Shown piece after piece: positions 16,952 to 22,856 of a stretch of 38,096 nucleotides of DNA. This DNA is from a virus. Made by a program: the position numbers and the translations under genes. The notes below the pieces were generated by a model. It searched no databases. It was not told the origin of the DNA and worked only from the letters and a program-made list of their open reading frames with translations. The DNA lies in the IMG/VR virus record IMGVR_UViG_3300010158_000164, positions 1 to 38,096 of that record. One strand, 5' to 3'. Each line of letters opens with the position of its first letter. The first letter of the stretch is position 1.

Positions 16952-17358
16952 TGGCTTCACCTATGCAAGATAAGAAGTACAAGGTTACAACCGCCTTTGG
17001 AATTAAGGGCGATAGATGGTCCTCTGGCCGCCACGAAGGAGTGGACTATGCTGCACCAACTGGCGCAGTGGTTGTTGCACCTATTGCAGGCAAAGTAGTT
17101 AAAGTTGGCCAGTGCTGGGGACCGTCTTTCGGTAGCCACTCTGTGTTAGTTAAGGTTGCAGGTGGATACCTTCTCTTTGCCCACCTATCAGCCAATAGCG
17201 TGAAGGTTGGACAGGACCTAAAAATTGGAGATGTAATTGGTAAGGTTGGAGCAGACGGAAACGTCACAGGTCCACACTTACACATGGAACTTCAAGAGGG
17301 TCCAGGCTGGGTTAAAGGCGGAGGCTTAGATCCAGCAGCTATAATTAGCGCTAAATAA
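16951..17358 (+). CDS. M23-family metallopeptidase endolysin (135 aa)
   Basis: A LytM/M23 zinc peptidase domain fills the protein: H28-x3-D32 (GRHEGVDYAAPTGAVV), H78 (LLFAHLS) and H109-x-H111 (GPHLHMEL) form the zinc and catalytic set. It cleaves peptide cross-links of peptidoglycan. There is no signal peptide, so it needs the holin. No cell-wall binding domain is present, making it shorter than most phage endolysins. It is the last gene of the late block, followed by a strong terminator. Confidence 0.92.
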   Translation: MASPMQDKKYKVTTAFGIKGDRWSSGRHEGVDYAAPTGAVVVAPIAGKVVKVGQCWGPSFGSHSVLVKVAGGYLLFAHLSANSVKVGQDLKIGDVIGKVGADGNVTGPHLHMELQEGPGWVKGGGLDPAAIISAK

Positions 17359-17421
17359 AACTCAGCAAACAGTGGGATAACATACCCATTGCTGGCGCAC
17401 AGCGCCACGTATAGCGACTTT

Positions 17422-17461
17422 GAGGGTCACTTGGTACTTCGGTATCAGGTGGCCCTCTTTT
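17422..17461 (+). terminator. Rho-independent terminator closing the late block
   Basis: GAGGGTCACTTGGTAC (17422-17437) pairs with GTATCAGGTGGCCCTC (17442-17457) over 16 positions (three G-U pairs), closed by a TTCG tetraloop and followed by TTTT. A smaller hairpin, GGCGC-ACA-GCGCC, lies just upstream at 17394-17406. The stem could also slow leftward transcripts, although there is no T tract on that side. Confidence 0.88.
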
Positions 17462-17472
17462 GTCGTTCCTAA

Positions 17473-17646
17473 GGTGGTGAGGATGGGAATCGAACCCACG
17501 CCTTCGTCCTGATACCCAGGAGTAACTGCTCCGTAATGCAACTTCTCGTTAACTTTGTGCTGTATAGGAAGCACTGGTTTCCGCTTGAATGTATTGCGCC
17601 TTAGTAGCTGGTTAACTGCAGTCCCGCCAATACTGCTTCGCTCACC
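17473..17646 (-). ncRNA. Candidate tRNA-like RNA (about 174 nt) or tRNA-derived att core
   Basis: On the minus strand the 3' end has a perfect T-arm (17499-17483: GTGGG, TTCGATT loop, CCCAT) followed by CCTCACC, A, CC. The 5' end, GGTGAGC (17646-17640), pairs with CCTCACC at 6 of 7 positions. Three bases later comes a D-arm-like hairpin, GCAG-11 nt with GG-CTGC (17636-17618). The space where an anticodon arm should be is enlarged to about 118 nt and contains GTGCT/AGCAC, GGAG/CTCC and TCCTG/CAGGA hairpins and a GTTAAC/GTTAAC pairing. No normal anticodon arm is found. It could be a new tRNA-like RNA, or the 3' part of a host tRNA kept as an attachment site, although I see no integrase gene. 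Confidence 0.5.
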
Positions 17647-17651
17647 TTGGA

Positions 17652-18173
17652 TTATTGTAGCATAAGATTTATTTTATTTATCTTTGATGCATCTAAATGC
17701 CAAGACTTACCATTGTAATCTCCACATTCTTTAATCTCAATCCCTGAAGCCCAGCCTAGAGCTTGGTACGGTGGAGACAGCCAGTTGTTTTCTTTAACTC
17801 TGCGGGTTTTGTGCTGTGGTCCACCAACAATAAGTACATAGGTAGCATCCTCAGCATCCCATTCAGATAGCCGTAGGCCCGTGGCCTTAAATGAATACCT
17901 AACCTCGTACCCTGGCACATCCTCTTGGGTTTTCCATTTGTTTACGTGCGGTTCAAAGTCATCAAGCCCACACATCCTAGCAAATGCAAGTTCAGACCCA
18001 GCGGCTATAGCATGTTGCCACATTTCCCAAATGTCACCCTCGGAATAGTTGCGATTCATCTCAGGTCTACCAAGGTAAGGGAGCTGGCGCTCATACCCAA
18101 TACGGGCAACCAAGCCTTCCTCCTGCGGAGTCAGGGAATAGGAATCAAATTTAAGCACACTAAACCCTTTCAC
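17652..18173 (-). CDS. PD-(D/E)xK-like or related phage protein of unknown function
   Basis: The only gene of a short leftward unit. The core reads GSELAFARMCGL, then TQEDVPGYEVRYSF, then LRLSEWDAEDATYVLIVGG, then GWASGIE. This E, D, E-V-R layout matches a widespread group of phage proteins that resemble restriction-type nucleases, though the last catalytic Lys is not clear to me. The start is uncertain. The frame is open to GTG 18242, but a consensus promoter -10 lies on 18232-18237, so transcripts from it must use a later start. GTG 18173, 9 nt after AACAGGG, is chosen. Its end lies just before the tRNA-like RNA. Confidence 0.65.
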   Translation of the reverse strand: MKGFSVLKFDSYSLTPQEEGLVARIGYERQLPYLGRPEMNRNYSEGDIWEMWQHAIAAGSELAFARMCGLDDFEPHVNKWKTQEDVPGYEVRYSFKATGLRLSEWDAEDATYVLIVGGPQHKTRRVKENNWLSPPYQALGWASGIEIKECGDYNGKSWHLDASKINKINLMLQ

Positions 18174-18231
18174 CAACCATGGCCCTGTTGGGTGGTGTAA
18201 CCACCCTACCTGTTTACTCGCTGTCGCTCGT

Positions 18232-18262
18232 ATTATACTCACACCCTCAAGGAACCTGTCAA
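18232..18262 (-). promoter_or_regulatory. Near-consensus leftward promoter (TTGACA / TATAAT)
   Basis: Read leftwards, TTGACA (18262-18257) and TATAAT (18237-18232) are both perfect hexamers, separated by 19 bases, slightly longer than the usual 17. The predicted transcript starts near 18225, inside the longest version of the leftward frame, and would carry the nuclease-like gene and the tRNA-like RNA. Confidence 0.65.
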
Positions 18263-21848: not shown

Positions 21849-22338
21849 TCCTGCGCCAGGTCATGAGCATGCTGTTGGCTGTCTTAGTATTCCTTATCGT
21901 ACTCCCACTGGGATTGTTGGTATCAAGTTTCGTAAAGTTGACGGAGGCACTCCTAAATATTTGTGGCCGACTGGTCAAAAGGTTGGCATGTATAACGTCA
22001 TTGACCTGCATGAAAGCTCAGATGTTATTGCTATCTGCGAGGGTGAGTTGGATACCTTGGTTATGTCTGCTCTTGTGGGTGTGCCTGCTGTGGGTATTGC
22101 TGGCGTGAGCCAGTGGAAGCCACATTTTCCTAAGATGTTTGAGGGGTTTGATCGTATCGTTATTTTTGCAGACAATGACCTCAAAGAGGATGGCCGTAAC
22201 CCTGGCATGGAGCTGGCCAAGCGCATTAAAGAGGACTTGGATAAGGCAGTAGTCATCTCACTACCTGAAAACAATGACGTGAACCAAGTGTACTTAGATG
22301 GTGGCGAGGAATGGTTGCGTGAGAGGGCCTTGGCATGA
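21703..22338 (+). CDS. TOPRIM-domain primase subunit (211 aa)
   Basis: The first ATG after an in-frame stop is used, because the conserved start YLLGRGITKEAAVTFRLG lies only 28 residues in. The ribosome site is poor. TOPRIM residues are Glu113 (CEGELDTLV) and Asp157/Asp159 (FADNDLKED). IPYRTPTGIVGIKFR is the region preceding TOPRIM in phage primases. With the CHC2 chain it makes a two-part primase; no helicase domain is fused. Confidence 0.88.
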   Translation: MLSQEQKLLLTETAEKYAGTLDQATASYLLGRGITKEAAVTFRLGTVNDPAPGHEHAVGCLSIPYRTPTGIVGIKFRKVDGGTPKYLWPTGQKVGMYNVIDLHESSDVIAICEGELDTLVMSALVGVPAVGIAGVSQWKPHFPKMFEGFDRIVIFADNDLKEDGRNPGMELAKRIKEDLDKAVVISLPENNDVNQVYLDGGEEWLRERALA

Positions 22339-22856
22339 CGATCATAGTGGGCATAGCCCATGACGGTAAGGTCTACATGGCTGGTGACCGTGGTATGTCA
22401 GACAAAGAGTTCATAGGTAGCATGGTTACACCTAAGATACACAAAGTTGGACCCATAATTATGGGTTACTCTGCATCGCAGGGTACAGGCCAGCTTGCTC
22501 ACCTGATTACCTATCCCAAGCCAGTGTATGAGAACCTTGAAGCATGGCTACGCATAGATTTCTGTGATGCCATACAAAAAGCAGCAGAATTATTTAAGGT
22601 AGACATTAACTCTGAGGATAATGGTGCTGACTTCCTTGTTGGTGTAGATGGCAGGCTCTTTGAGATCAGTACCGAGGATTGGTCAGTAGCAGAATACGAC
22701 ATGATAGCCAATGGTTCAGGCTATGCCTATGCAATGGGGTCACTATTCAGTACCCGTGACTGGGATAGTCCCCGTAATCGCGTTAGGGAGGCTGTGAAGG
22801 CCTCTATTAGGTACTCACCCACGTGCCAAGGGCCAGTAGATACGTTGGTCTTATGA
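22335..22856 (+). CDS. Proteasome / HslV-like Ntn hydrolase (173 aa)
   Basis: ATGA overlap with the primase. After Met removal the chain begins with Thr1; counting from it, Asp17 (AGDRG) and Lys33 (TPKIHKVG) fall at the residue numbers of the proteasome beta catalytic set, and GSG (126-128) matches the later conserved Ser region. The opening TIIVGIAHDGKVYMAGD is close to HslV. It should be a threonine peptidase, probably in a ring. No unfoldase is encoded here; it might use host HslU, Mpa or ClpX, or work alone. Confidence 0.82.
   Translation: MTIIVGIAHDGKVYMAGDRGMSDKEFIGSMVTPKIHKVGPIIMGYSASQGTGQLAHLITYPKPVYENLEAWLRIDFCDAIQKAAELFKVDINSEDNGADFLVGVDGRLFEISTEDWSVAEYDMIANGSGYAYAMGSLFSTRDWDSPRNRVREAVKASIRYSPTCQGPVDTLVL

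Follow-up and report, generated by a model that had tools for sequence, protein, structure and literature searches.

A cassette with exchangeable cargo in the phage genome

The window analyzed here (38,096 nucleotides, positions 1 to 38,096 of the IMG/VR virus record IMGVR_UViG_3300010158_000164) originates from a freshwater setting and probably represents a tailed phage of an actinobacterium, as hinted by a WhiB-like gene and by a 748-aa protein that matches Streptomyces phages. A leftward cassette, in which a promoter is followed by a leader hairpin, cargo and an end hairpin, sits between convergent gene blocks of this genome (Table 1). The near-consensus promoter that the original prediction assigned to the unit ending in the tRNA-like element is indeed found there (TTGACA-N19-TATAAT at 18262-18232) and is kept in relatives. 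The leader hairpin is probably a real RNA structure because both of its sides are changed in L068. The strong hairpin noted at the end of the unit is likewise real (17422-17457) but its T-run lies on the plus strand, so that it is first of all a terminator of rightward genes. The first cargo gene, P0001, yielded no Pfam family and one weak PHROG.

In the related phages, with flanks that are about 80-92% identical to those in the window, the promoter, the leader hairpin and the end hairpin are kept whereas the cargo differs. There is no cargo at all in L027-L029, where the distance from promoter to hairpin is 99-100 nt, so that the leader transcript of about 100 nt might itself be a small RNA. 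P0001 is the sole cargo of L003 and L004; L026 and L030 have an ORF of about 80 codons instead, and L002 combines P0001 with that ORF. In the window and its near-identical contig, P0001 is accompanied by the 174-nt element. The combination of a conserved promoter, a covarying leader hairpin and exchangeable cargo was observed in window positions 17422-18262 and in L002, L003, L004, L026-L030 and L068.

Judged by these sequence comparisons, the whole element constitutes an insertion into a slot whose cargo varies; it follows directly after the P0001 stop codon and is missing from close relatives. In more distant phages, the P0001 homolog is directly followed by an ordinary tRNA-Arg(UCU) gene (L019-L021, L023-L025), with tRNA-Met present as well in L019-L021; thus, the end of the P0001 gene is a site where tRNA genes occur. 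A perfect 9-nt inverted repeat (17441-17449 and 17508-17516; chance expectation, about 0.2 in 321 nt) links the hairpin that precedes the T-arm with an arm of the end hairpin, and the two copies could pair in a read-through RNA, opening the end hairpin. Elsewhere in the window, in the replication gene block, the plus-strand gene at 22335-22856 encodes a protein with similarity to HslV/proteasome-type peptidases (phrog_1040, 2e-18; the Pfam Proteasome match is below the cut-off).

Table 1. Coordinates of the cassette, the parts of the 174-nt element and the mini-tmRNAs (window positions unless another sequence is named)
Feature	Position	Strand	Evidence and remarks
Cassette promoter TTGACA-N19-TATAAT	18232..18262	-	kept in relatives
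ORF P0001, first cargo gene of the cassette, family unknown	17652..18242	-	true start may be inside
Leader hairpin GGGTGGTTACACCACCC; L068 version GGGCGATTCCATCGCCC	18190..18206	-	comparison with relatives
Insert relative to related phages (ends +/- few nt)	17471..17663	-	L002 similarity stops at CTTATG; L027/L003 similarity restarts at AGGAACGAC
Extended -10-like TGC-TACAAT	17654..17662	-	consensus match only; in the insert alone, lacking in L002 at the same place
tRNA-like element, 174 nt (acceptor, D-like arm, expanded middle, T-arm, A73, CC)	17473..17646	-	sequence, descriptor scan, identical copy in IMGVR_UViG_3300010885_003101
Acceptor 5' strand GGTGAGC	17640..17646	-	6/7 pairs with 17482-17476
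D-arm-like hairpin GCAGT-ATTGGCGGG-ACTGC, loop with GG	17618..17636	-	sequence; most constrained low-energy folds
Hairpin TCCTG-GGTAT-CAGGA directly 5' of T-arm, place of class II variable arm	17507..17521	-	low-energy folds, varying register, acceptor and T-arm fixed
T-arm GTGGG-TTCGATT-CCCAT	17483..17499	-	sequence; clan CL00001 match; R1 match confined to T-arm
Acceptor 3' strand CCTCACC (17482-17476), A73 and CC (17475-17473)	17473..17482	-	sequence
Hairpin closing the cassette	17422..17457	.	intrinsic terminator of plus strand; no T-run on minus strand; kept in relatives
Mini-tmRNA	L051:3664-3744	+	descriptor scan
Mini-tmRNA	L035/L056/L057:7597-7678	+	descriptor scan; Rfam tmRNA for L035, L056
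Mini-tmRNA	MT701595.1 42932-43011		

Structure of the 174-nt element

The top half of a tRNA, that is, the acceptor, a GG-bearing D-like hairpin and the T-arm, is present in the element, and the lower half is not that of a tRNA. The T-arm, the 7-nt acceptor strand, the 5' strand complementary to it at six of seven positions and the D-like hairpin are all located on the minus strand where the original prediction had placed them, and so is the stretch of about 118 nt between the D-like arm and the T-arm that takes the place of the anticodon arm. The T-arm has exact tRNA geometry; in the acceptor, GGTGAG(C)/(C)CTCACC, six contiguous pairs are formed and the seventh is a C7.C66 mismatch. Further deviations from tRNA are the spacer of 3 nt, not 2, before the D-like stem, and position 14, which is not A. 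The CCA end is only partly encoded (A73, CC), and G1 of the acceptor is the 8th nucleotide past the extended -10-like sequence.

In IMG/VR, the element is known from a single population, represented by two near-identical contigs, the only other copy being in a contig that is 99.97-99.98% identical to the window. The search of plasmids gave no match, and the search of the phage collection gave only short matches, mostly to tRNA T-arms.

Fixing the acceptor and T-arm gives a predicted fold of the minus strand in which a middle of several parts separates the D-like hairpin from a hairpin immediately 5' of the T-arm. The unconstrained free-energy minimum lacks the T-arm (-48.2 kcal/mol vs -45.0 kcal/mol with the acceptor and T-arm constrained), and the folding energy of the whole element, compared to shuffled sequences, gives no indication of extra stability (z of -0.77).

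In class II tRNAs, which include tRNA-Ser and tRNA-Tyr, the variable arm lies directly before the T-arm. Among the phage tRNAs examined that have the acceptor GGTGAG/CTCACC, 46 of 57 are tRNA-Ser, and the rest include tRNAs for Cys, Arg and Tyr; those that combine this acceptor with A73 are limited to Ser (two) and Tyr (one). Judging from the acceptor with A73 and from the predicted hairpin 5' of the T-arm, the putative ancestor would be a class II tRNA of the Ser or Tyr type.

We identified six size-matched tRNA-like stretches with the GGTGAG/CTCACC acceptor in IMG/VR, none of which is homologous to the element except L032, a near-identical copy. In L094 and L198, GGTGAG appears to occur by chance upstream of normal tRNAs. 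The minus-strand sequence L122:4685-4862 reads as a tRNA-Tyr(GUA) in which 94 nt separate positions 37 and 38 (ARAGORN assigns it to Asp), and L197:10022-10186 (minus strand) and L199:1647-1809 (plus strand) are tRNA-like sequences with about 80 nt in the D-loop. Shorter tRNA-like sequences of 74-78 nt with the same acceptor, in which the seventh pair is mismatched and the anticodon arm is not clear, are found on the minus strand in L192 (7306-7387) and L196 (about 2769-2842).

Comparison with known RNA classes

The covariance search proposed in the original prediction yielded, with the Rfam models, a match to the tRNA/tmRNA clan, but one far below threshold (13.7 bits, where the gathering score is 47) that covers only the T-arm and the acceptor, with an E-value of 0.0016 for 501 nt and of 0.12 for the window over 4227 families. 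The bacterial Y RNA-like YrlA also contains a tRNA-like module in a non-decoding RNA, but its model, RF02553, matched nothing in the window and nothing at E-values up to 10 within 17300-17800. The element is not a canonical tRNA with a cloverleaf and a 7-nt anticodon loop: ARAGORN with default settings made no call on it, and there was no RF00005 match at the gathering score. Compared to the phage class II tRNAs (Ser/Tyr), with which it has in common the GGTGAG/CTCACC acceptor, the T-arm, the D-like hairpin and the hairpin before the T-arm, the element lacks an anticodon arm, has about 118 nt between the D-like arm and the T-arm and carries a C.C seventh pair.

An intron-bearing tRNA resembles the element in that extra sequence splits the two tRNA ends, the clean example being the 178-nt jumbo-phage sequence in L122. 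However, none of the 1519 single-interval deletions of the element leaves a tRNA, whereas 26 of the 30 interior-shuffled control sequences gave at least one. Since no deletion of one interval restores a tRNA, the anticodon arm is really absent; in the intron model that ARAGORN produces for the element under lax settings, the anticodon stem includes T.T and A.G mismatches.

As in tmRNA, the acceptor and the T-arm form the two ends of a longer RNA. However, the element is not a tmRNA: at 174 nt, it is shorter than one and contains no plausible tag frame, both as originally noted, the G3-U70 pair is replaced by U3-A70, and neither a tmRNA D-loop nor a P2 joined to the T-arm is present. The 'TLD only' tmRNA of mycobacteriophage DS6A is likewise a phage-encoded tRNA top half without an anticodon (PMC4131195, PMC11915505). 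RNAs of that type were recognized by the arrangement GGGG...GGNNTCGAC-P2-T-arm-...CTCC within about 80 nt, and the element has neither the G3-U70 pair nor the D-loop nor the short P2 helix. With R1, a covariance model of tag-less tmRNAs, the element falls outside this type: it scores 21.3 bits, through the T-arm only, compared to 22-23 bits for ordinary tRNAs and 79-86 bits for true members.

Possible origin and function of the element

The descriptor that we used to assess chance resemblance (T-arm, 6-bp acceptor and GG-bearing D-hairpin) was written after the sequence had been seen, and accordingly, its single occurrence in the window against none in 300 shuffled windows is support rather than proof. 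For the T-arm by itself, the chance expectation is 0.22 occurrences per window. Nevertheless, given the absence of the joint pattern from the shuffled windows and the presence of tRNA genes at the same gene end in relatives, it is highly improbable that the element is an unrelated regulatory or junk stretch that looks like a tRNA by accident. Slightly less improbable, but still very unlikely, is that the element is part of a protein-coding sequence that either specifies a separate small protein or extends P0001. The original prediction drew attention to such a frame, and one minus-strand frame is indeed open for 103 codons, but its first standard start codon occurs only at 17574, the predicted protein has no PHROG and no relative in GenBank phages, and IMG/VR contains no further locus besides the near-identical contig. 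The codon usage fails to distinguish it from open wrong frames: the codon score of -0.109 is reached by 29% of these, and 93% of true frames score higher.

The 3' ends of tRNAs are the usual att cores of phages, and several T-arm matches in the collection that lack the 5' acceptor strand resemble att sites. An orphan att core, that is, the 3' end of a host tRNA used for integration, was the alternative given in the heading of the original prediction, and we consider it highly unlikely for the element because it would not account for the matching 5' acceptor strand and the D-like hairpin. Furthermore, neither a tyrosine integrase nor a serine recombinase was detected in the record (the original prediction likewise saw no integrase); related phages carry cargo in this slot without the sequence in question; and the suggested search for a host tRNA 3' end failed, with no exact match to the 34-nt or 22-nt 3' end in the genomes of about 85,000 species of bacteria and archaea, among which the host species may be missing. 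The other half of the heading, a tRNA-like RNA in which the anticodon arm is replaced, is the best remaining description.

We give about an even chance to the interpretation of the element as a tRNA-derived, anticodon-less tRNA-like RNA that forms the 3' cargo of the leftward, one-promoter cassette and would act as a mimic or decoy. The evidence for this origin includes the tRNA geometry, the outcome of the shuffling, the tRNA/tmRNA clan as the best Rfam match and the insertion after the stop codon of P0001, a gene whose homologs elsewhere directly precede tRNA genes. The arguments against a working RNA of this derivation are the confinement to one population, the ordinary folding energy, the lack of the T-arm in the unconstrained minimum, the C.C pair, the odd spacer and position 14. 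The P0001 message that starts at the cassette promoter would carry the element at its 3' end, and RNase P would release the element by a cut at G1; alternatively, the extended -10 could itself drive transcription from G1 or an adjacent nucleotide. Trimming of the 3' end and addition of CCA would follow. The mature RNA would keep those features that tRNA-binding proteins grip, the acceptor and the elbow, having lost decoding, and could thus act through such proteins, including a synthetase, EF-Tu, processing enzymes or tRNA-directed defense nucleases.

A decayed tRNA with a foreign insertion would look much the same. It is a real possibility, although we do not favor it, that the element is such a relic, an acquired class II tRNA gene in which the anticodon arm was replaced by insertion or fusion and which is now functionless. 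The single population, the acceptor mismatch, the odd spacer and D-loop and the stability no higher than that of shuffled sequences are all compatible with decay, as are the frequent gain and loss of cargo in the slot and the existence, in other phages, of tRNA-like sequences with inserts of about 80-95 nt (L122, L197/L199). Conversely, the acceptor retains six contiguous pairs, the D-like hairpin has persisted and the T-arm is perfect, and a simple insertion into a tRNA is not the history because no single-interval deletion returns one. Rather doubtful, in our estimate, is the more specific proposal that the phage makes a functional tRNA mimic with a new layout, in which a class II top half is combined with a non-tRNA domain of about 118 nt under the strong cassette promoter; such an RNA might engage a host synthetase or tRNA-processing enzyme, or shield phage tRNA pools from tRNA-cutting defenses. 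If functional, the element would be an anticodon-less phage tRNA mimic that is unrelated to tmRNA and resides in a natural cargo slot, which allows comparison of phages with and without it.

Mini-tmRNAs in diverse phages

The descriptor scan of the relatives also led to RNAs of about 80 nt in L051, L035, L056 and L057, namely, tmRNAs from which the mRNA-like domain is missing (hereafter mini-tmRNAs). Their layout consists of G3-U70, the GGNNTCGAC D-loop, a short P2 and the T-arm. Those in L035 and L056 score above the Rfam tmRNA cut-off (61.7 and 56.7 bits vs 47), with about 306 model positions absent, and the cut-off was passed by all 10 mini-tmRNAs tested. A gapped pattern of this layout, in which GGGG, CTCC, the D-loop and part of the T-loop were fixed (so that G3-U70 is present by construction), retrieved at least 120 IMG/VR stretches that merge into at least 102 distinct places (L200-L319) in diverse phages.

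The pattern placed no constraint on acceptor pairs 5-7, on T-stem pairs 1-4 or on the P2 helix. Among the matches listed, all seven acceptor pairs are formed in 97 of 102 places. For the analysis of covariation, which is near-perfect in the T-stem and P2, 55 dissimilar mini-tmRNAs were drawn from those listed places where the acceptor is complete: the first two T-stem pairs form in all 55 (shuffled mean 21-24), each with four pair types, and the P2 pairs, with the register picked for each sequence, are formed in 47-54 of the 55 (shuffled mean 23-26).

In the literature searched, mycobacteriophage DS6A is the sole phage example of a tag-less tmRNA that is named (PMC4131195, PMC11915505); hence, the family appears to be known in principle but much larger than described. 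A molecule similar to the DS6A RNA strongly inhibits tmRNA, perhaps by titrating SmpB, according to a statement in PMC4131195 that cites Mao et al. 2009. The mini-tmRNAs are candidate inhibitors of host trans-translation, and the wide spread and tight covariation of these RNAs suggest that phages commonly block or re-use the ribosome rescue of their hosts. In practice, this family carries more weight than the 174-nt element.

About a fifth of the mini-tmRNAs among the matches listed (22 of 125) have a canonical tRNA gene within 500 nt, and in Streptomyces phage Shaeky, the mini-tmRNA lies between tRNA-Phe and tRNA-Leu in a tRNA cluster. By full-length similarity, mini-tmRNAs were also found in Streptomyces phages LuckySocke, GiJojo and pSt2308, Pontimonas phage phiPsal1 and Stenotrophomonas virus Jojan60; the RNAs of these isolated phages carry no tmRNA annotation, and the isolated Streptomyces phages make the role of the mini-tmRNAs testable.
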